Shown in pieces: positions 11,330 through 46,055 of a stretch of 64,000 bases of DNA. Numbering within the stretch: position 1 is the stretch's first letter; the number at the start of each line of letters is the position of its first letter. A model generated the notes under the pieces. That model saw only the letters and a list, made by a program, of their open reading frames with translations. It ran no database searches and was not told the DNA's origin. Origin of the DNA: Pseudonocardiaceae bacterium (GTDB taxonomy: Bacteria; Actinomycetota; Actinomycetes; Mycobacteriales; Pseudonocardiaceae); NCBI GenBank assembly GCA_009379845.1, contig WHSZ01000009.1, forward strand, positions 1 through 64,000, written 5' to 3'. A program made the position numbers and the translations under genes.

Positions 11330-12225
11330 TTCGGCGCTCCCCGCACGGTCGACGTGTAGTCCTGCAGCCTCGATTCCAGCGTCGATGGGAACATCCCGGC
11401 GACGGAATCGGGCGTCCAGCCGCCCTCGCGCACCACGGAGGCGACCTCGGTGGGATGCGACCACAGCGAGATGCGGTCGCCGCCCGCGCCGACGCACTGG
11501 CCGGTGATGCCGGACGCGGCGTCCGAGGCGAGGTAAACGATCACCGGCGCCACGTCGTCCGGGGTGCCGAGCCCGTCGCGGCGCAACTGGTCCGGAACCG
11601 GCTCCCCGGCCTCGACCGCCTCGACGACCTCACCGAGCCCGGGGACCGTGGCCACCATCCGAGTAAGCGCCGTGGGAATGACCGCGTTGACCGTGACACC
11701 GAGCTTCGCGCACTCGACCGCCCAGGTGCGGGTGAGCCCGACGATCGCGGACTTGGCAGCGGAGTAGGCGGTCTGGCCGAAGCTGGCGCGCTGGCCGGCT
11801 GGGGAGCCGACGAGGATCAGCCTGCCGCCGTCGCCCTGCTCGCGGAACCGGTTGACCGCCGCGCGCCCGCAGGTGAACGTGCCCCACACGTGCGTGTGCA
11901 GCACGGCCTCGAAGTCCTCGTCGGTGGTGTTGCGCAGCGTCCGGTCCCGCAACACGCCCGCGTTGGTGCACATGACATCGAGGCGCCCGAACTCGCTCAC
12001 CGCGCGGCCGACGAGCGCGTCTGCCGACTCGGCACTGCCGACCGCACCGATTTCCGCGACGGCCTTGCCGCCGGCAGCGGTGATGGACTCGACGGTGTCC
12101 TTCGCGATCTCGCCGTCCACATCGTTGACCACGACCGAGGCGCCGGTGGCGGCCAGTGCGGACGCGTACGCCCGCCCCAGTCCGCGGCCAGCGCCGGTGA
12201 CGACGGCGACCTTGCCTTCCAGCAT
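11326..12225 (-). CDS. Short-chain dehydrogenase/reductase
   Basis: A 299-residue classical SDR: cofactor motif TGAGRGLG at 10-17, NAG at 88-90, Ser141, Tyr154 and Lys158 in YSAAK. The acidic residue in VVNDVDGE suggests NAD preference. The extended C-terminus (about 50 residues beyond the usual 250) resembles the dehydrogenase part of peroxisomal-type multifunctional beta-oxidation enzymes. As first gene of an operon with amidohydrolase, acyl-CoA ligase and MaoC hydratase, it probably oxidises a hydroxyacyl-CoA. A promoter with an overlapping palindrome lies 34-62 bp upstream. Confidence 0.9.
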   Translation of the reverse strand: MLEGKVAVVTGAGRGLGRAYASALAATGASVVVNDVDGEIAKDTVESITAAGGKAVAEIGAVGSAESADALVGRAVSEFGRLDVMCTNAGVLRDRTLRNTTDEDFEAVLHTHVWGTFTCGRAAVNRFREQGDGGRLILVGSPAGQRASFGQTAYSAAKSAIVGLTRTWAVECAKLGVTVNAVIPTALTRMVATVPGLGEVVEAVEAGEPVPDQLRRDGLGTPDDVAPVIVYLASDAASGITGQCVGAGGDRISLWSHPTEVASVVREGGWTPDSVAGMFPSTLESRLQDYTSTVRGAPK

Positions 12226-25577: not shown

Positions 25578-25598
25578 CCGGCACCCGAGCTAGCCGGC
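25567..25598. repeat. 16-bp tandem duplication carrying both convergent stop codons
   Basis: ACCCGAGCTAGCCGGC is repeated exactly twice. The amidase stop (TAG, 25575-25577) is in copy one; the ceramidase stop (CTA on the plus strand, 25590-25592) is in copy two. The self-complementary CTAG supplies a stop on both strands. Confidence 0.85.
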
Positions 25599-27613
25599 AC
25601 CGGTGACCGCGAAGGTGTTCGACGTGCCGGTGAACGACCTGATCATGCCGAGCGCCTCTTTCGCCTCGCCGCGGTACCTGATCCGGTAGCTGCCCTTGGT
25701 TGCCTCGGCCGGCACCTGCCAGCCGATCGTGATCTTCGATGCGGCGATACCGTCCCTGGCCCAGCGGAACGTCGTGGACCAGTCGCCGTCATCCGCGACC
25801 GTTTCCCATGAATCGCCGTTCCGGCGCTGTACCTCGAGGTAGCTGCCACCACGATGCCGGTCGTTGCCCGGATGCGCACCCGCGAAGGTGGTAAGCACCG
25901 ACTCGCCACGGGTATACGACGCGCGCGGTTGCTTGAGCACATCCCCGAACTTCCGGCCGAGCTGCGGGTGGTCCAGCAAGACCGGTGGCTGCACGGAAAG
26001 TTGCCGCCCGGACAGATCCGGAGGCCTCGGACCGAGTGGAGGCGAGCTTCCGTCCCGCATGGCGGTGGCCAGCTCCGCGGATACCTGCCGCAGCGCGGGA
26101 AGTTGCCAGCGACCGAACAGCGTGCTGCCACCCTCGTAGTGCTGCGCGTCGTACTCCTCTGGCGTGGTGACGTAGTGCAGGTACGAGTTGCTGTACCCGG
26201 TGACGAGCACGTCGCGCAGGTCGGCGTCGACGATGTCCGCGACGGTGCGCCGCAACCGCAACCCCGCTGCGACGGTGACCTCGCCTGGGATGCCGATCAG
26301 GTACAGCTGTCCCACCCGGACAAGCTGTACCGGAACCTTCTCCTGCACCCATGGACAGATCGGGTTCATCTCGCCGATCGGTACCACGATGCCCTTGGGC
26401 GCCTGGCACTCCTTCAACTCGGGCGACGCCTCGTACAGCACCGAGTCGGACACTTTGTCCCACAGTGGGTTGGCGCCCTCCGCGAAGGTAGGGAAGGCAG
26501 GGCCGTCCTCGGTGCTGCCGGCAGCCATCGCGGCTCCGATCGCGGGCTCGCAGGTGCGATGATGCGCACCGTCGCCAGTGAACTCCGGCCGCACGTCTAC
26601 AGTGGACATGTCGACGTACACCAGCCGGGCATCCACACCGCCGGTGACCCGGCTACCCGGCTGGCTGAGCTGCCGCGCGGCCGCTTCATACTGCCGCAGC
26701 CCGTTTTCCTGGTTTCGGCGAAGTCCTCCGGTGTGGTGGGCGGTGTGAGATCGAGACTCGGCGACATGTCGCCCGCGTTGGTCTGCGCGAAAGCGGACAC
26801 GAAGCCGGGGTCGGCGCCGGCGCGGTAGTTGACGCCCTCGACGTCGCGTTCCCAGTGGTAGGCGGCGTAGCCCTTGTTGTCCCCGCTGATCAGCCGGTTG
26901 TCGCCGGACATGCTGGTGCCGTGGGTGGCGAACCAGTTGATCGCCCCGACCGGGCGGCCAGCACGTTCGACGCGCAGTAGCGAGGTCTGCGGATCGATGC
27001 CGTTCGGGAAGAATTCCTTGTCAGCACGCGGATTTCGGTCGAAGGCCGCTTTGGAGCGGTTCACGCTGGCGTCAAGCAACTCGCCGTGGGTCAGGGTGAG
27101 GCCCGCCGGTTCCGCGTCGGAATGTGCCCGCTGCACCGATTCCACGATCCCGTTGGCGATCGCGTCGAAGGTCTTGCGGTGGAAGCCAAGCGTTGTCAGG
27201 TTGTAGAGCAGGTGGTGCGAGTAGCCGCCGGGCCCCGCATGCGTATGCGTGCCGGTGATCAGCACGTTCTGCTCGGTGTAGAGAGCGCCGTACCGTTCGG
27301 CGAGCCGGCGCAGCACCTCGCGGCGCACGCTATCGAAGATCATCGGCGAGTCGACGACGACAAGCAGCACCCGCGAACCGCTGGCCCGATCCGCGATCAC
27401 GAACGACCGGGCCCGCAACCGGTTGTGCAGCCCGTCGGCCTGCTGGTCGGCGCGGCCGTAGCCCATCATCCCGACCTCGGCCACCTCCCCGGTGGCGTCC
27501 GCGATGCCACGGCCGACCAGGTACCCGGCCTCCGGGCTCACGCGCACCTCCGCGGGGGCGCTGACCGACCCGAGCGCGACGAGAGCGGCGGCAGCCAGCG
27601 CCGTGGCTTTCAC
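25590..27613 (-). pseudogene. Secreted neutral/alkaline ceramidase, frameshifted
   Basis: Read leftward from GTG 27613. A signal peptide (MKATALAAAALVALGSVSAPA) precedes the ceramidase domain: TGTHTHAGPGGYSH carries zinc ligands and AFAQTNAGDMSPSLD holds the nucleophilic Ser. After EDFAETRKTG, at the CCC run 26700-26702, the frame breaks; the other frame continues at once with LRQYEAAARQLSQPGSR and runs through NPICPW and VTGYSNSYLHY to the C-terminal beta domain. Adding one C gives an intact protein of about 674 residues that would cleave ceramide to sphingosine and fatty acid. It overlaps the beta-propeller gene by four bases. Confidence 0.82.
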
Positions 27614-28818
27614 GACTCGAGCGCGTCGACGGGAACGGCGTAGCCGCGGACGCGCTGCGGGTGGTCGCCAACCGGGATCCGGGCGAGTTCCCGTGGACTG
27701 TCGAAGGACACCACGGAGATGTCGTCACTGTCGCTATTGGACACGAAGCAGCGGTTCCCGTCCGGGCTCGCGGCCGCCCAGTATGGCTGGTCACCCGTCG
27801 GTACGATCTCGTCGACCGTCAAGGCGGGGACGGACAGGATCGCCGCATAGTCGGAAATGGTGCCCGCGTCACAGATCTTGGTGCCATCGTCGTTCATCGC
27901 CAAACCGTGGTGGGCTGAGTCAAGCGGGTAGTCCTCTCGCTTCATGCTCTTCGCCTCGTCGGACAGCGGCAGGTGCACCGTGCGGGTGGTGCGCTCCTCG
28001 GCGAGATCGTATTCGACGAAGCCATTGTGAAAGGACAGCTGCGCGTACATGGTGCGTCCGTCCGGCATGACGATGAACGGCCGGATGCCGACGCCGAAAT
28101 CGATCACCTTCTTGATCCGCAAGGTCCGCGCATCCGCGATCGTCAGCCAGCGGTTGCCCTTCCCCGCGTCCAGCAGTGGATCGTCCGGCGCGATCACCCT
28201 GCCGATGGTGGCGTTATAGATCGTGCTGCCGTCCGCGGAGTACTGGTTCTCGTGCGGGAAATCGCCGGTGGCGAACTTCCCGGTGCTCCGGCCCGTCGCG
28301 GTGTCCAGCACGTTGACCGCGTTCGCTGTGGTCGCGGAGACCAGCAGCTTGCCGCCGTCCGGCGAGATCGCCATGTGGTCGGAGCGGTACCCGTCCACTC
28401 GGGTGAACCACAGCTGCTTGCCGGTGGCGACGTCGAATGCGGACACGTCACCGAGACTCGGCCGGGAGACGTACATGGTGCGGCCGTCCGGGGCGGCCAT
28501 GATGTCGTCCACCAGCTGGTGGTGCCCCTCACCGGCGGTCTGCTTGATCACCTCCATGGCGACTCGCCTGTCCGGCGTCATCTCGGCCTTGCGCTGCTCG
28601 AGATCGGGAACCACGTTCAGCCGCTGGTATTTCTCGAAAGTCGTCGCGTCGAGCAGGTCTACCGTGCCGTCCCAGTTGTTGCCGACGAACATCACGTCCC
28701 GGCTCGCCGGATCGCTCCGCGACGAAGTGGCCTGGAAAGCCCGCGCGGCGGGAACCACCGCCAGCGTCAGCACCACCGCCGCACCCAGCGAGCCCAGCCG
28801 GACGAATCGCATCCTCAT
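27610..28818 (-). CDS. Secreted YVTN-type beta-propeller protein
   Basis: A 402-residue protein. A basic start MRMRFVRLGSL is followed by a hydrophobic core ending AARA, a signal peptide; the rest is a seven-bladed propeller, with blade repeats such as MAAPDGRTMYVSRPSLG, AISPDGGKLLVSATTA and AASPDGNRCFVSNSDSD. Such proteins bind ligands or scaffold surface complexes; no catalytic residues are recognisable. ATG 28818 is chosen for the GAGG seven bases upstream. It is the first gene of a two-gene operon with the ceramidase and faces a decayed tetR across a 19-bp palindrome. Confidence 0.8.
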   Translation of the reverse strand: MRMRFVRLGSLGAAVVLTLAVVPAARAFQATSSRSDPASRDVMFVGNNWDGTVDLLDATTFEKYQRLNVVPDLEQRKAEMTPDRRVAMEVIKQTAGEGHHQLVDDIMAAPDGRTMYVSRPSLGDVSAFDVATGKQLWFTRVDGYRSDHMAISPDGGKLLVSATTANAVNVLDTATGRSTGKFATGDFPHENQYSADGSTIYNATIGRVIAPDDPLLDAGKGNRWLTIADARTLRIKKVIDFGVGIRPFIVMPDGRTMYAQLSFHNGFVEYDLAEERTTRTVHLPLSDEAKSMKREDYPLDSAHHGLAMNDDGTKICDAGTISDYAAILSVPALTVDEIVPTGDQPYWAAASPDGNRCFVSNSDSDDISVVSFDSPRELARIPVGDHPQRVRGYAVPVDALES

Positions 28819-28858
28819 CGAGTACCTCGCCATTTCGACTACCCAGCAGTAGACATGA

Positions 28859-28877
28859 ACGCGAATCGGATTCGCGT
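28859..28877. promoter_or_regulatory. 19-bp palindrome, operator candidate
   Basis: ACGCGAATCGGATTCGCGT: perfect 9-bp arms around one G, between the propeller/ceramidase operon and the tetR remnant. This is the expected place for the operator of a divergently encoded TetR repressor, which is now broken. Confidence 0.65.
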
Positions 28878-28894
28878 ATTTGTACACTGGTCGC

Positions 28895-29249
28895 ATGTCA
28901 GCCGCAAGGCCCGACAGCTCCCGCGCAGAGCCGGAGAGCCCGGCACAGCGGCGTAGCCGGGCACGCGCCGGGTTGATCCTCGACGCGGCGGTAGCCGCCC
29001 CCGCCGACGGCGTGGAACGGTTCAGCGTCCGCACCCTCGTCGAGGTGAGCATGCACACCTTCGTCGCGATGCATCAGCACCGGCCGGCCGTGGCGACCCG
29101 CTGGTGGCCGAACTAGCGGTAGAAATCGGTGCTCGCGTCTTCGAACTCGCCTTCGAACACGACCTGTGCGGCAACCAGCGCGTGGTCATCGAAGGCATCG
29201 ACGCGGTTACCGGCTACCTGGAGCGCCACGCCCCACCGGTACTCACGGG
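28895..29249 (+). pseudogene. Decayed TetR regulator gene
   Basis: ATG 28895 opens with an N-terminal TetR segment (RRSRARAGLILDAAVAA, then GVERFSVRTLVE), but the recognition helix and most of the ligand domain are missing. The frame then jumps to HTFVAMHQHRPAVA and, after another shift near 29095, to LVAELAVEIGARVFELAF and VVIEGIDAVTGYLERHA, a plausible TetR C-terminus. The tail runs into the end of the MFS gene. At least one internal deletion and one frameshift make this non-functional. Confidence 0.7.
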
Positions 29250-30572
29250 TCAGTTGGACGTGGCCGCTCGGCGGGCGAGCATCGAGATGGAGACGAGTGC
29301 CAGCACGGCGAGCACGATAATGTAGCCGGCCACGGACATCGACGTACCCGTCGCCTCGAGCAGTAGCACCATGAGGAACGGCGCCAGCCCGCCACCGAGT
29401 ACCGCGCTGATCTGGTATCCCATTGACGCACCCGTGTAGCGCATTTCGGGAGTGAACAGCTCCGCGAACAGGGCGGCCTGCGGCCCGTACATGACACTGA
29501 GGAACGTGCTTGCCACCAACGAAGCCACGATCAACCCTGGGTAGGTCGCGGTGTCGATGAGCAGGAACATCGGGATCGCCCAGATCAGCAGCCCGACCGC
29601 ACCCGCGCGATAGACCCGCACCCTGCCGATCCGATCGGACAACCGAGCGGCGGCAGGCAGCGCGACCAGCTGGGTCAGGCTGACCAGAATGATCACAGTC
29701 AGCACCGGGCCGTGCGGCATCCCGAGATCACGCGTCGTATAGTCCAGCGTGCCGGTAATCAAAATGTAGAACGTCGCGGTGTTGACCGCGAACGAACCGC
29801 CGGCAAGCAGCACGGTGCCAAGATGCTGGCGCAGGATCTGCCGGATCGGCGAGCGCGCTCGGCCATGCTCCTCGGCGGCAAGCTTGGCCTCCGCCTCGCG
29901 GAACTCCGGCGTCTCCTCGATCCTCGTGTGGATGAACCAGGCGAGCACCAGCACGAAGAGGCCGAGCAGGAACGGGATTCGCCATCCCCAGCTGCCGAAG
30001 GCCTCCTCCGGCACGACGGTCTGGACTACCAGGAACACGGTATTCGCCAGTACCACGCCGATCGGCACACCCATCTGGACGAAGCTGCCGTAGAAGCCGC
30101 GCTTGCCGGTCGGCGCGTACTCGGTGGCCATCAGCATCGCGCCACCCCACTGCGCCCCGACCGCGATGCCTTGCAGCACACGGAGAAGTACCAGTGTGAT
30201 CGGGGCGAGTACACCGATCGCCGAGAAAGGCGGGAGCAGCCCGATCAGTGTGGTGGACGCACCCATGATGACCAGCGCGATGACCAGCATCGGCTTACGA
30301 CCGTGCTTGTCACCGAGATGTCCTGCGAGGATGCCGCCGAACGGGCGCGCCGCGAAGCCCACGGCGAACGTGGCGAACGAAGCGAGAACGCCGGCGACCG
30401 GACTGGCAGCCGGAAAGAACTGGTCACCGAAGACCAGCGCGGCGGCGATACCGAATAGGAAATAGTCGTACCACTCGAATGCGGATGCCATCGCCGCGGC
30501 GGTGGCTCCCCGGCGCTGGCCGGTGGACGTCGAGGTGACTCCGGCCGTGCCGGAGCCGTAAGAGGTGTCCAA
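29250..30572 (-). CDS. MFS transporter, metabolite:H+ symporter (MHS) type
   Basis: A 440-residue permease with 12 hydrophobic helices. AMASAFEWYDYFLFG opens TM1 as in the MHS family (KgtP, ShiA, ProP), and GILAGHLGDKHGRKP is the loop 2-3 MFS signature; LPAAARLSDRIGRVRV is its repeat in the second half. It imports an organic acid, betaine or similar solute with protons. TTG 30572 is chosen because GGAGGG lies six bases before it; no ATG fits the start of TM1. Its promoter region is shared with the carboxyltransferase gene and contains a TetR-type site. Confidence 0.88.
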   Translation of the reverse strand: MDTSYGSGTAGVTSTSTGQRRGATAAAMASAFEWYDYFLFGIAAALVFGDQFFPAASPVAGVLASFATFAVGFAARPFGGILAGHLGDKHGRKPMLVIALVIMGASTTLIGLLPPFSAIGVLAPITLVLLRVLQGIAVGAQWGGAMLMATEYAPTGKRGFYGSFVQMGVPIGVVLANTVFLVVQTVVPEEAFGSWGWRIPFLLGLFVLVLAWFIHTRIEETPEFREAEAKLAAEEHGRARSPIRQILRQHLGTVLLAGGSFAVNTATFYILITGTLDYTTRDLGMPHGPVLTVIILVSLTQLVALPAAARLSDRIGRVRVYRAGAVGLLIWAIPMFLLIDTATYPGLIVASLVASTFLSVMYGPQAALFAELFTPEMRYTGASMGYQISAVLGGGLAPFLMVLLLEATGTSMSVAGYIIVLAVLALVSISMLARRAATSN

Positions 30573-30682
30573 TTTCGCCCTCCACGAAGTGGGGTACTGC
30601 TTCGGGCATCGTCTGCCGGCGCTAGCTGGGCGTGCGCCGGAAATTACCAACCGCTTACTGCGGCCGTCAACGATCGGTTCCG

Positions 30683-30698
30683 TACCGACCAGTTGGTA
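30683..30698. promoter_or_regulatory. TetR-type operator candidate, site 1
   Basis: TACCGACCAGTTGGTA is an imperfect 16-bp palindrome closely related to the perfect site at 34957-34974. It lies between the divergent MFS and carboxyltransferase genes. Confidence 0.5.
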
Positions 30699-30796
30699 TT
30701 CCTCTGCCGCACCGTTGTGGCGCGCATGGACGTCGACAGTGGACATTCCCGCGGCGGACACTGGTATGGGATCGCTCTACGCCGAAAGGAGCAGCG

Positions 30797-40815: not shown

Positions 40816-42147
40816 CTAGCTGGGCAGCGAGGGCAGCGTGAACTCGTCGAGCCACGCCGCGAAGAGCCCGCGCAGCTCCCGCTCGGCGTGCCGCTCGGCC
40901 AACTCGATGAACTCCTCGGTGCTAACCGTGCCGTGCCGGTGCTGGCCGGTCCAGGCCCGCAGCAGCGCGAAGAACGCCACATCCCCGATGCGGCGGCGCA
41001 ACGCGTGCAATGTCAGCGCTCCCCGCTTGTACACCCGCTGGTCGAACATCAGCGCCACGCCGGGATCACCGATCCGGATGTCGGTGGGGCCGGCCGCCAC
41101 CCGCGCGTGCCAGGCACGCGCCTGTGCCTGCGCGGACGGCCCTCCGGACGCCTCCGACCACAGCCACTCGGCGTACGTCGCGAATCCCTCGTTCAGCCAG
41201 ATGTGCCGCCAGTCAGCGATCGTGAGGCTGTTGCCGAACCACTGGTGAGCCAGCTCGTGCACGGCCAGGCGTTCGTGCGTGCGCGCACCGTCGATGTGGT
41301 TCGCCCCGAACACCGACATGCCCTGTGCCTCGATCGGATCGTCCAGCTCGTCGTCCGTCACCACCACGACGTACTCGCTGAACGGGTACGGCCCGAAGAA
41401 CCGCTCGAGCACGCTCATGATCTCGGCATGGTTGCCGAAGTCCGCGGTGAAGTCCCGGCGCAGTCTCGCGGGTATCGCGGCTCGCTGCGGCACCGGCTCG
41501 ATAGCGAGCCGCACCTCGTCGTAGAGTCCTATCTGGACACTCATCAGGTACGTCGAGGTGGGCTCCGGCCGTTCATAGACCCACGTCGTGGTGCTCGCGG
41601 CACGACGGCGTGCCACCAGGTTCCCGGTCACCAGCACGGTGTATGCCGAAGCCGTGGTGAGCGTGATCCGGTAGCCGGCCTTGTCGGCCGGGTGGTCGTT
41701 GCACGGAAACCAGGACGGTGCGCCGATGGGCTGGCTTGCGACGAGCGAGCCGTCGGTCAGCTCGTCCCAGCCGATGTCTCCCCAAAGCCCGGAAACCGGC
41801 TGCGGGTTGCCGACATACCGGACTTCCACGCGGAACTCGGCACCCTGCGCGATCGACTGTGCCGGTTTGACACGGAGCTTGTGCTGGCTGTGCGTGTACC
41901 TCGCGGGGCGGCCGTCCACAGTCACGCGCTGCACCCGGAAGTCGACCAGATCCAGCGTGAACCGGGACAGCGTGTGGGTGGCCACCGCGATGATCGTCGC
42001 GTTTCCGGTGAGCCGGTTCGGTCCGACCCGGTAGTCCAGTTCCAGGTCGTAGTGGCGGACCCGGTACCCGCCGTTGCCGTGCCCTGGGAGGTACGAGTCA
42101 CCGGAGTTGTCCGCACCCGGAGCCGCTGGTGTTGCCGGCGGGTTCAC
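40816..42147 (-). CDS. M1 family zinc aminopeptidase, Pld-like
   Basis: A 443-residue metallopeptidase. The zinc motif is HELAHQW (His297-Glu298-His301) with the third ligand Glu320 in WLNEGFATY. The exopeptidase GAMEN motif is replaced by AQGMSVFG, as in short actinobacterial M1 enzymes. The C-terminal domain is much reduced. GTG 42147 is preferred: AGGAGG lies nine bases upstream and it overlaps the synthetase stop as GTGA; GTG 42183 is alternative. M1-type Pld enzymes degrade epsilon-poly-lysine in producing Streptomyces, so coupling to a Pls-like gene suggests product degradation or self-protection (inference). No signal peptide is evident. Confidence 0.85.
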   Translation of the reverse strand: MNPPATPAAPGADNSGDSYLPGHGNGGYRVRHYDLELDYRVGPNRLTGNATIIAVATHTLSRFTLDLVDFRVQRVTVDGRPARYTHSQHKLRVKPAQSIAQGAEFRVEVRYVGNPQPVSGLWGDIGWDELTDGSLVASQPIGAPSWFPCNDHPADKAGYRITLTTASAYTVLVTGNLVARRRAASTTTWVYERPEPTSTYLMSVQIGLYDEVRLAIEPVPQRAAIPARLRRDFTADFGNHAEIMSVLERFFGPYPFSEYVVVVTDDELDDPIEAQGMSVFGANHIDGARTHERLAVHELAHQWFGNSLTIADWRHIWLNEGFATYAEWLWSEASGGPSAQAQARAWHARVAAGPTDIRIGDPGVALMFDQRVYKRGALTLHALRRRIGDVAFFALLRAWTGQHRHGTVSTEEFIELAERHAERELRGLFAAWLDEFTLPSLPS

Positions 42148-45100
42148 CCTCGGCGTCCTCCTGCGAGCGATCCCTTGGTCCACGCCGAGATCGGATTTCC
42201 GAGCCAGCGCGAGTCGGCGGGCACCGCGTCCCCTCGGGTGATCAGCGATCCTGGCCCGACCGTGGTGCGGGCGCCGATGCTGGCTCCAGGCAACACGATC
42301 CCGTGCGGGCCGAGGGTCGCACCCGCTTCCAGCGCCACCTCGTCCATGCTCATCACCCGATCATGGAACAGGTGGGTCTGCACAACGCAACCCCGGTTGA
42401 TCGTCGCGCCGTCCCCGACCCGCACCAGGTCCGACTCCGGCAGCCAGTAGGTCTCCATCCACGCACCGCGGCCGATCTTCGCGCCCATGGTGCGCAGCCA
42501 CACCGGCAGCAACGGCGTGCCGCCGGCGCCGCCGATCAGCCAGGGCACCGCGAGTACCTCGACGAACGTGTCAGCCAGCTCGGCCCGCCACACGAATGAG
42601 CTCCACAGTGGATGGTCGACGACCCGGAATCGCCCTACCAGCATCCACTTGGCCAGCGTCGTCACGGCGCTGGCCACAATGCCGGCGACGAGCAGCAACA
42701 CGCCGGACGCCAGCGCGGCCGGCCACAAACCCATCGCGGCGTACATCGCTTGCAACGCGGCGAGCGTCAGCACGGCGAGGGCGGCACCGCAGATCACCGG
42801 AACGATCCTGCACAGTTCGACAGCCGCGCGGGCGGCCTTCAGCCGGCGTGGTGGCCGGAAAGTCCGGCTGGCATCCGCTTCCTCGGCCGAGCGGCGCAGC
42901 GGCATCGGCGGCATGCCCAAATAGGACGAACCCTTCTTGGCCTTCGGTGGCGCGGAGGAAAGCACGCCGACCAGGCCGCGTTTCGGTACCGAGCGGCCGG
43001 CCGCCGTCATCCCGGAGTTGCCGAGAAACGCCTGCTTGCCGATCCGTGCCGGCGCGACGTGCAGCCAGCCGTTACTCAGCTCGTAGGTGGCCACCATGGT
43101 GTCGTCGGCGAGGAACGCTCCATCGACCACCTTGGTCATCGTGGGCAGCGCGAGAACGGTGGATGCCTCCACGTCGCGACCAACCCTTGCGCCGAGCAGG
43201 CGCAGCCACACGGGGGTGAACAGGCTGGCGTACAACGGAAACAGTCCGATCCTCGCCATGTCCATCAGCCGCTCCGTCGCCCACACCTGCCATGCGACCT
43301 TGCCGTGCACCGGGTGGAACCCCTCGTGCAGGCCGATGCTGAGCGCGCGAACCGCCACCAGCACCAGCATCGCGAAAGCGGCGAAGTACACCACGGTCGC
43401 CACCGGTACCGCCAGCAGTGCGGCGCCGAGTACCGCACCGAGCGTGCCGCCACTCGGGATCGCCATACCCAGTACCGCGATGCCCGGTACCGCTGCCACC
43501 GCGGGCAGCAGCCCGAGCAGGACCGAGGTGATTCCGTAGACGGTGGACCAGAGCCGGGAACGCGGCGGGCGGCTGGCCGGCCACTTGAGCGCATCCTTGC
43601 CGGCACGGGCCGCCGGCGCGCCAGCCCATCGTTGCCCGGCTGGCACCGCGCCGCGCACCGTGGAGCCTGGCACGATCTCGGCGCCCTTGCCGATCCTGGT
43701 GCCAGGAAACAGGGTGCAGCGGGCACCGACCCGCGCTCCGGCGCCGATGCGAATCTTGCCGATGTGTACGAGGTTGCCGTCCACCCAGTACCCGGAAAGG
43801 TCCGCTTCGGGTTCCACCGCCGCTCCCCTGCTCAGTTTGAGCATCCCGGTCACCGGCGGGGGTGAATGCAGGTCGACGTCGCTGCCTACCTTGGCGCCCA
43901 ACGCCTTTGCGTAGCGCGTCATCCAGGAAGCGCTGGAGACGCCGCCCGCGCCACTGAACTCGGCCAGCTGCTGGGCAGCCCAGAGTCGCATATGGACGTT
44001 CCCACCGCGCGGGTAGCTACCCGGCCGGACGCCGCGTAGCAGCCACCGCGCACCTCCCGCTGAGATCGCGATGCGGCCGGCGGGGCTGAACAGCACCAGC
44101 CAGGCAAGCGCGATCCACCACCAGGACACCGTCGGTGTCCAGGTGTACGAACCGAACCACGCCAGCACGTTGGACAATCCCGCCGCGATCGTGGTCCAGC
44201 GCAGCCCGACCAGGGTCAGCATCGGCAGCATCAACAGTGCCTGCAGCGCACCGGTGCGCCTCGGGATCGGCTCGACGTCGGCCCGTTCGGTCTCGGCGCC
44301 TTCCAGTTCGTCGAGCAACGAGGCCAGCGAGCCGAGTTTCGGGTTCTGGTAGATGTCGGTGACCGACACCTGCGGGTGCCGGGTGCGGATCCGGGCGATC
44401 AGCTGCGCGGCGGTGAGGCTGCCGCCGCCGTGCGCGAAGAAATCCGCCTTCGAGTCCGATACCTGGACGCCAAGGATTTCCGCCCACCCTTCGGCCAGCC
44501 ACGCTTCGGTCTCGGACAGTCCGGCCGCTGTGCCTATGGTGGACAGTGGCCAGGGCAGGGCGTTGCGGTCCACCTTGCCCGAGGTACGGGTCGGCAGGTC
44601 GTCGACGACCGCGAGCAGCGGTACCAGCGCGGAGGGTAGCTGGTCGCGCAGCGTTGCCGTGGCGCCGTCCTTGTCGAAGGTAACCCCCTCGGCCGGGACC
44701 AGGTAGCCGACGAGAATCTGATTGCCCGCCTTGGTTTCGCGGATCGCGGCGGCCGCCCCCGCGACGTCCGGCAGGGCCTGCAGCGCGGCATCCACCTCGC
44801 CGAGTTCGATCCGGCGGCCACCGAGCTTCACCTGCTCGTCGGCGCGACCGACGAACACCAGCCCCTCGGGGTCCGCGCGCACGATGTCGCCGCTGCGATA
44901 GGCGCGGCGCCAGCCGAGCGGGGCGAGCGCGGTGAACTTCTCGGCGTCCTTGGCCTCGTCGAGGTAGCGGGCAAGACCGACGCCACCGATGACCAGCTCT
45001 CCGGTCTCGCCCATCAGCACCGGTTCGCCGTGCTCGTCGACAACGGCCAGCTGCCAGCCGGCCAGCGGAAGGCCGATCCGTACCGGGCCGTCGCCGGTCA

Positions 45101-46055
45101 GCTGCGCGGCGCAGGCCACCACGGTGGTCTCGGTCGGCCCGTAGGTGTTCCAGACTTCCCTGCCCTCGACAGCGACACGTTCGGCAAGCTCCGCGGGGCA
45201 AGCCTCGCCGCCGAAGATCAGCAGCCGGACGTCTTCCAGCGCGTCCGGCGGCCACAATGCCGCGAGCGTCGGCACGGTGGACACCACGGTGATCCGGCGG
45301 GCCACCAACCACGGGCCGAGGTCCAGGCCGGTGCGTACCAGCGATCGGGGCGCCGGTACCAGACAGGCGCCGTACCGCCAGGCGAGCCACATTTCCTCGC
45401 AGGAGGCGTCGAACGCCACCGAGAGTCCGGCCAGCACGCGGTCACCGGGTCCCAGCGGTTCCTCGGTGAGGAACAGCTGCGCCTCGGCGTCCACGAAGGC
45501 CGCGGCCGAGGCGTGGCTCACCGCGACACCCTTCGGTTTGCCGGTCGAGCCCGAGGTGAAGATGATCCACGCGTCGTCGCTGGGGGCGGGCCGGCCGTGA
45601 CGCTCGGATGGGGCGACGAGCACGGTGAGTGCTCCCGCGTCCTCGAGAATCGCGGATACCTCCGCCTCAGCGAACACCAGTTCGGCCCGCTCGTCGGGAT
45701 CGTCCGCGTCCACCGGGACGTATGCGGCGCCGACGGAGAGCACGGCCAGGATCGCGATGTAGAGGTCCGTGGTTCCGGAGGAGATCCGGACGCCGACGCG
45801 GTCGCCGAGTCCTATGCCGGTGACCGCCAATCGCCGGCTCAGCGCATCGACGTCCTCAGCCAGCCGGCGATAGCTGAGCACCCTGGTGCCGTCGTCGATG
45901 GCGGCGGCACCGGGATACCGCCGGGCCGTCTCCCGAAAGATGTCCACGAGAGTGCGCTCGCTCGCGGCGAGACCGGACCAGTAGAGGGCGCGGGTGCCGG
46001 ATGCGACCGGTGCGGCCAGTCCTGGCAGCGCCGGTCGATCGGCGGTCAGCGTCAC
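42144..46055 (-). CDS. Pls/PosA-type single-module peptide synthetase (poly-amino-acid synthetase-like)
   Basis: A 1303-residue membrane NRPS. Adenylation domain 30-505: TSGSTGKPKG (167-176), FDASCEEMW (215-223), NTYGPTE (303-309), YRSGD (386-390), Lys494 in TSGKVDRNAL. Carrier domain with phosphopantetheine Ser546 in HGGGS. Then three pairs of membrane helices (about 615-680, 835-905, 1085-1155) separate three soluble domains with hexapeptide-like turns (VHIGKIRIGAGARVGA; GATINRGCVVQ). No condensation or thioesterase domain. This is the architecture and size of Pls, which polymerises lysine through isopeptide bonds. Glu220/221 near pocket position 239 suggests a basic amino acid substrate. 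GTG 46055 is the start. Confidence 0.9.
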   Translation of the reverse strand: MTLTADRPALPGLAAPVASGTRALYWSGLAASERTLVDIFRETARRYPGAAAIDDGTRVLSYRRLAEDVDALSRRLAVTGIGLGDRVGVRISSGTTDLYIAILAVLSVGAAYVPVDADDPDERAELVFAEAEVSAILEDAGALTVLVAPSERHGRPAPSDDAWIIFTSGSTGKPKGVAVSHASAAAFVDAEAQLFLTEEPLGPGDRVLAGLSVAFDASCEEMWLAWRYGACLVPAPRSLVRTGLDLGPWLVARRITVVSTVPTLAALWPPDALEDVRLLIFGGEACPAELAERVAVEGREVWNTYGPTETTVVACAAQLTGDGPVRIGLPLAGWQLAVVDEHGEPVLMGETGELVIGGVGLARYLDEAKDAEKFTALAPLGWRRAYRSGDIVRADPEGLVFVGRADEQVKLGGRRIELGEVDAALQALPDVAGAAAAIRETKAGNQILVGYLVPAEGVTFDKDGATATLRDQLPSALVPLLAVVDDLPTRTSGKVDRNALPWPLSTIGTAAGLSETEAWLAEGWAEILGVQVSDSKADFFAHGGGSLTAAQLIARIRTRHPQVSVTDIYQNPKLGSLASLLDELEGAETERADVEPIPRRTGALQALLMLPMLTLVGLRWTTIAAGLSNVLAWFGSYTWTPTVSWWWIALAWLVLFSPAGRIAISAGGARWLLRGVRPGSYPRGGNVHMRLWAAQQLAEFSGAGGVSSASWMTRYAKALGAKVGSDVDLHSPPPVTGMLKLSRGAAVEPEADLSGYWVDGNLVHIGKIRIGAGARVGARCTLFPGTRIGKGAEIVPGSTVRGAVPAGQRWAGAPAARAGKDALKWPASRPPRSRLWSTVYGITSVLLGLLPAVAAVPGIAVLGMAIPSGGTLGAVLGAALLAVPVATVVYFAAFAMLVLVAVRALSIGLHEGFHPVHGKVAWQVWATERLMDMARIGLFPLYASLFTPVWLRLLGARVGRDVEASTVLALPTMTKVVDGAFLADDTMVATYELSNGWLHVAPARIGKQAFLGNSGMTAAGRSVPKRGLVGVLSSAPPKAKKGSSYLGMPPMPLRRSAEEADASRTFRPPRRLKAARAAVELCRIVPVICGAALAVLTLAALQAMYAAMGLWPAALASGVLLLVAGIVASAVTTLAKWMLVGRFRVVDHPLWSSFVWRAELADTFVEVLAVPWLIGGAGGTPLLPVWLRTMGAKIGRGAWMETYWLPESDLVRVGDGATINRGCVVQTHLFHDRVMSMDEVALEAGATLGPHGIVLPGASIGARTTVGPGSLITRGDAVPADSRWLGNPISAWTKGSLAGGRRG

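Follow-up and report, generated by a model that had tools for sequence, protein, structure and literature searches.

Closest described systems

In Pseudomonas aeruginosa the ceramidase gene cerN is under the control of a dedicated regulator, SphR (PMC5150637). Here we analysed a 64,000-nucleotide (nt) stretch of a Pseudonocardiaceae bacterium, a soil-type actinomycete (contig WHSZ01000009.1 of assembly GCA_009379845.1, positions 1 to 64,000; hereafter the window), in which genes for a YVTN-type beta-propeller and a neutral ceramidase form an operon opposite the remnant of a tetR gene. Comparison with 390 Pseudonocardiaceae genomes leads us to favour, with moderate confidence, a history in which another gene pair supplied the upstream part of the operon promoter and the now decayed tetR, the operon kept an element of its own, and the ceramidase reading frame was lost recently or is misread. 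A literature search, judged by titles and abstract openings at the top of the longer listings, found no description of this locus.

The two ceramidase halves in the window together align over nearly the whole length of the P. aeruginosa neutral ceramidase (PDB 2zws) and of NCBIfam NF041649. An arrangement reminiscent of SphR control is seen among the close propeller relatives, defined as 22 other genomes of the 390 with propeller identity of at least 66%. An AraC-type gene lies near the propeller in four of them (L165, L167, L176, and L183) and is divergent from it in three (L165, L167, and L183); the AraC-type protein of these relatives has an AraC_binding domain. The window contains no match to it.

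Two further kinds of neighbourhood resemble the locus, each in a different part. Those in which tetR accompanies a flavin amine oxidase gene (L128, L129, L130, and L184) share with the window the tetR gene and its operator site, and in L128 also the promoter stretch, whereas the window tetR is wrecked and its partner is the propeller-ceramidase operon. Operons of Prauserella and Saccharomonospora (L022, L023, L038, and L042) have the same gene order, adjacency, and leader with a dyad, termed here dyad B, but differ in that no tetR was found, the ceramidase is in one frame, and the promoter carries another dyad, dyad A, imperfect in some of them.

Origin of the tetR remnant and the palindrome

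The elements facing each other at the upstream end of the operon are the following.

28859-28877, no strand: perfect 19-base-pair (bp) palindrome at the operator site of tetR orthologues, centred 3 bp away from the axis of that site; it holds the core of dyad A
28895-29011, plus strand: tetR remnant piece 1, the protein start, from alignment to L128 and a home-made TetR_N profile (E 4.4e-5)
29012-29107, plus strand: tetR remnant piece 2, corresponding roughly to orthologue residues 92-125, in the frame of piece 1, from alignment to L128
29104-29232, plus strand: tetR remnant piece 3, the C-terminal part in another frame, from alignment to L128 and the end of the G018 TetR

The limits of the pieces were set by eye. 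They are collinear with the TetR of genome G018 (locus L128), a protein that matches TetR_N and TetR_C_15, and piece 3 is 67% identical to its end over 43 residues. Together with recovery of the head by the home-made profile, which was built from 35 sequences, this marks the remnant as the descendant of a TetR gene. The original prediction, which spoke of a tetR reduced to head and tail, was thus right about the decay and too simple about the form, as three pieces are preserved. Against Pfam the head gave no match, and no helix-turn-helix domain was recognised in it. The stretch containing the DNA-reading (recognition) helix, the location of which we assume from general TetR anatomy, has no counterpart in the remnant when it is aligned to the G018 orthologue.

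Searched alone in 200 family genomes, the remnant head gave matches in 10, including its own genome, and the tail in 26, mostly weak in both cases. Genomes matched by both were G018, G073, and G126, to which the search with the full protein added G325. Among all 390 genomes, the full G018 TetR identified only these four as carriers of close orthologues (G018 itself, G325 with 67%, G073 with 57%, and G126 with 56% identity), the next-best TetR being 36% identical. A flavin amine oxidase gene lies near the orthologue in all four. It is directly divergent from tetR in L128, directly beside it and convergent in L184, and one reading frame away in L129 and L130; the intervening frame in L130 matches flavin monooxygenase-like families.

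In none of the 22 close relatives did the profile that recovers the window's own remnant find a TetR-type domain within the scanned distance of up to 2.5 kb (about 1 kb in L176) on the upstream side of the propeller. The ceramidase adjoins the propeller in 10 of these relatives, and in two more (G400 and G219) the contig stops directly behind the propeller. The original prediction had named relatives with the operon but never a tetR as grounds for its refutation, and as far as the operon is concerned such relatives exist. Because of this, and because the tetR orthologues reside near the amine oxidase, the earlier proposal that the operon lost its own repressor finds no support in the comparison.

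The palindrome between the propeller and tetR is present as predicted. Its core, CGAATCNGATTCG, occurs once in the window genome, which is 92% complete. As such, perfect palindromes of this build (9-bp arms around a 1-nt centre) are not rare, with three in the 64-kb window; what makes this one of interest is where it lies. The tetR orthologues carry a dyad just before tetR, in the place where the window has the palindrome. Read in tetR orientation, the site is GAACGCGAATCGGATTC in the window, GAACCCGAGTCAGGTTC in G018, GAACCTGAGTCAGGTTC in G325, and GAACATGAGTCATGTTT in both G126 and G073. Base pairs were counted by eye on each axis: the window keeps six of the eight pairs on the axis of the orthologues, while its perfect palindrome is centred 3 bp away. 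The suggestion that the palindrome was the tetR operator consequently agrees in place and disagrees in axis, and the palindrome core matches, with the same GAAT-N3-ATTC spacing, the dyad A that propeller relatives have on their own.

The end of an MFS transporter gene (Sugar_tr/MFS_1; 29250-30761, minus strand) lies 18 nt beyond the point where alignment of the remnant stops. The four tetR orthologue loci gave no match to this transporter.

Propeller promoter and leader dyad

On the operon side the relevant features are as follows.

27610-28833, minus strand: intact YVTN-type beta-propeller gene, 407 amino acids, first gene of the operon, identified by TIGR02276, Lactonase PF10282, relatives, and its N-terminus
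28839-28852, no strand: dyad B, YTAC-N6-GTAR, here CTACCCAGCAGTAG, found at 23 of 36 propeller loci
28879-28907, minus strand: putative sigma70-type operon promoter (TTGCGG, 17 nt, TACAAA), from consensus match and the same spacing in 13 picked relatives

The propeller matches the NCBIfam YVTN repeat TIGR02276 with 53.3 bits (cut-off 27.85) and also exceeds the cut-off of the Pfam family Lactonase PF10282. Its N-terminus and that of the ceramidase resemble signal peptides by eye, and the propeller gene runs over the ceramidase start at 27613. The description of a secreted YVTN propeller overlapping with its neighbour hence agrees with our analysis, and production and secretion of the propeller probably continue. 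This type of operon is common to several Pseudonocardiaceae.

Thirteen of the 22 close relatives, picked for their shared form, have promoters composed of TTGCG[CT], 17 nt, and CA[CG]A[AC]T, followed by dyad A and then by dyad B, which takes the form CTAC-N6-GTAG shortly before the start. Dyad A, in about the same place as the window palindrome, is exact (GAAT-N3-ATTC) in nine of them and imperfect in G065, G107, G129, and G401. In the operons L168 and L169 dyad B is kept and dyad A is not.

The putative window promoter sits within the part homologous to the start of tetR. In operon orientation, the alignment of the window with the G018 tetR region is free of gaps from the tetR start, across the whole palindrome, and as far as GTTCA. 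From TTCAT onward, 15-19 of 24 positions are identical to the 13 propeller promoters, compared to 12 of 24 in G018. Because of this switch in similarity, the promoter looks like a hybrid, tetR-type through the palindrome and propeller-type from TTCA onward.

Dyad B, which the original prediction missed, is retained in the window. Its distribution was assessed in a wider set of 36 propeller loci, the window included, with identities down to 41%, in the zone from 200 nt before to 60 nt after the inferred propeller start. It is present at 23 of the 36 loci, compared to 0.4% of shuffled regions, in a control that preserves base composition and not dinucleotides. Furthermore, it occurs at 7 of the 13 most distant loci, with propellers only 41-53% identical. 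Near ceramidase starts it was detected at 1 of 66 loci, indicating that dyad B goes with the propeller; at ceramidase loci preceded by a propeller, the region scanned falls inside the propeller gene. As a separate observation, contig C30 of the window genome holds at 11618-11656 two close words similar to dyad B, TTACTCGCAGGTAA and TTACCGGCGAGTAA, with starts 25 bp apart.

Frame loss in the ceramidase gene

The second gene of the operon is present in two frames.

26597-27613, minus strand: ceramidase N half, Ceramidase_alk 1-260 of 509 and NF041649 3-279 of 636
25590-26636, minus strand: ceramidase C half, Ceramidase_alk 324-508, Ceramidse_alk_C, NF041649 300-635, and L022 residues 302-674
26696-26720, minus strand: frame-loss zone between the halves, located from the frames of the halves and the single frame of ten relatives

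Homology of the N half stops near 26696, and the remainder of the 27613-26597 frame is an out-of-frame reading. Homology of the C half begins near 26720, upstream of the listed GTG. Accordingly, alignment of the full-length L022 ceramidase to the window breaks up into one piece with residues 2-309 and another with residues 302-674, which join at 26696-26720. This ceramidase, from Prauserella endophytica, is 100% identical to that of G107. Both halves of the neutral ceramidase profiles (NF041649, or PF04734 together with PF17048) are present, in two frames that score 394.8 and 433.7 bits, compared to the curated NF041649 cut-off of 1200. They are the only ceramidase matches in the window genome at E 0.001. 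All ten relatives with a propeller-adjacent ceramidase have it in one piece and one frame. In a wider set of 71 ceramidase loci, most of those in which both parts were found have them in the same frame; L070 and L081 are among the exceptions, as are some partial matches.

What had been predicted as a secreted neutral ceramidase therefore stands with respect to family and signal-peptide-like N-terminus, and falls with respect to a single intact gene. Compared to the P. aeruginosa enzyme, the frame is split in such a way that the two parts of the active site, whose residues we presume to be drawn from both halves, lie on different products. Provided that the sequence is correct, no active ceramidase is expected, since the gene is cut short, and this undercuts the idea of a derepressed ceramidase. 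Contact with a host or another eukaryote, also proposed, does not follow from the gene, as 164 of 390 family genomes match the ceramidase at E 1e-80.

Relaxed selection was sought by pairwise pN/pS (the ratio of nonsynonymous to synonymous changes) for the whole ceramidase gene and for each half against five relatives, and none was seen. The values are 0.19-0.37 in the N half and 0.31-0.45 in the C half, and among the relatives themselves 0.12-0.37 and 0.18-0.48, respectively. The similarity of these ranges suggests that the frame loss is recent or a sequencing error, and the gene is most likely either newly dead or misread.

An error of sequencing or assembly, which would leave the operon fully active, is a real possibility, although we rate it as somewhat less than probable. 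It would agree with a single frame loss within about 670 codons, with constraint relaxed on neither side, and with short homopolymer runs close to the break. On the other hand, ten other frames of the window, including four adjoining same-strand pairs, matched different families and show no profile split across a pair in a limited check, and the adjacent tetR has decayed.

Proposed history of the locus

In the history we favour, a rearrangement in this lineage would have fused the 5' leader of the operon, at or near the shared TTCA, with the control region of a tetR/flavoprotein pair, so replacing the upstream part of the promoter; the region would have brought in tetR together with its operator site and a sigma70-like promoter. 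Separated from its partner, the imported tetR would then have decayed through at least two deletions. The operon would have retained its own leader dyad B, probably bound by a regulator encoded elsewhere. The palindrome would descend from the tetR operator site, having drifted or been selected toward the original dyad A of the operon; given this resemblance, the former regulator of the operon may recognise it. For the most part, the locus would represent ordinary decay. The regulator fragment opposite the operon and the palindrome do not prove the loss of a repressor, and the comparison points instead to the control region of another pair. Dyad B, a conserved element in the leaders of a family of secreted propellers, may deserve follow-up, as it could point the way to their regulator.

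Several observations weigh against this history. The intermediate, an intact tetR beside an intact operon, was not found in any genome examined, which leaves the order of events to conjecture. Just four close tetR orthologues were found in the 390 genomes, and the surroundings of the operator give a close, gap-free alignment in G018 only. The window genome, which is 92% complete, gives no match to the G018 amine oxidase at E 1e-20; this speaks for the import, but comes from a search run without a positive control. The ceramidase halves show no relaxed constraint. At its low end, the similarity to the propeller promoters (15 of 24) is little above that to G018. Neither dyad A nor dyad B is found in the described form in 7 of the 22 close relatives (L095, L175, L177, L178, and L180-L182), and a loose dyad B pattern shows no genome-wide enrichment, with 31 sites compared to 36 for the reversed-pattern control. 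In addition, the 10-nt word ACGCGAATCC, located just after the -10 box, is common to the window and the G020 propeller promoter, and TetR-type genes do occur upstream of ceramidases in other taxa, as described below.

The shared 10-nt word could be explained by an old propeller promoter into which a short stretch was inserted, in which case only the upstream tetR gene would be foreign. The same spacing of the -35 and -10 boxes and the GAAT-N3-ATTC core would agree with such a native promoter. It is difficult to reconcile with the gap-free alignment to G018, which takes in the tetR start, both boxes, and the palindrome before reaching GTTCA, and we regard this alternative as rather unlikely. 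Taken together, the dyad A spacing of the core and the word shared with G020 mean that an imported site was remodelled or that a native one contributed.

A more elaborate version of the import can be put forward only tentatively, as its probability is rather low. The foreign tetR region would have been swapped in and its operator remodelled to GAAT-N3-ATTC, whereupon the old trans-acting regulator would have taken over and made tetR dispensable; dyad B would then mark an undescribed, family-wide regulator of propellers.

The original idea, that tetR was the operon's own local repressor acting on the palindrome and that its loss leaves the operon derepressed, appears unlikely. The remnant is indeed divergent and begins next to the promoter, and its orthologues have a dyad in the corresponding place. 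TetR-type genes were also found upstream of 8 of the 66 ceramidase loci of other taxa (one weak match, in L049; less than 500 nt available at two of the 66), and in four they are divergent from the ceramidase (L050, L066, L078, and L079). These features are opposed by the absence of a TetR-type domain upstream of all 22 propeller relatives, the location of close orthologues near an amine oxidase, the 3-bp distance of the palindrome axis from the orthologue dyad, and the broken ceramidase frame. Of the four loci with divergent genes, two belong to Nocardia records and one each to metagenome-assembled genomes of Frankiales and Rhodoferax.

Finally, programmed ribosomal frameshifting would account for a ceramidase made from both frames and for constraint on both halves, the downstream frame being open on the upstream side of the break as far as it was translated in the analysis, but it is very improbable because the ten relatives with the gene pair use one frame and inspection by eye revealed no canonical slippery heptamer in the required phase.

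Other features of the window

Elsewhere in the window, a frame of 1303 amino acids at 42144-46055 contains AMP-binding, carrier, and hexapeptide repeat domains, an arrangement which we take to resemble epsilon-poly-lysine-type synthetases.

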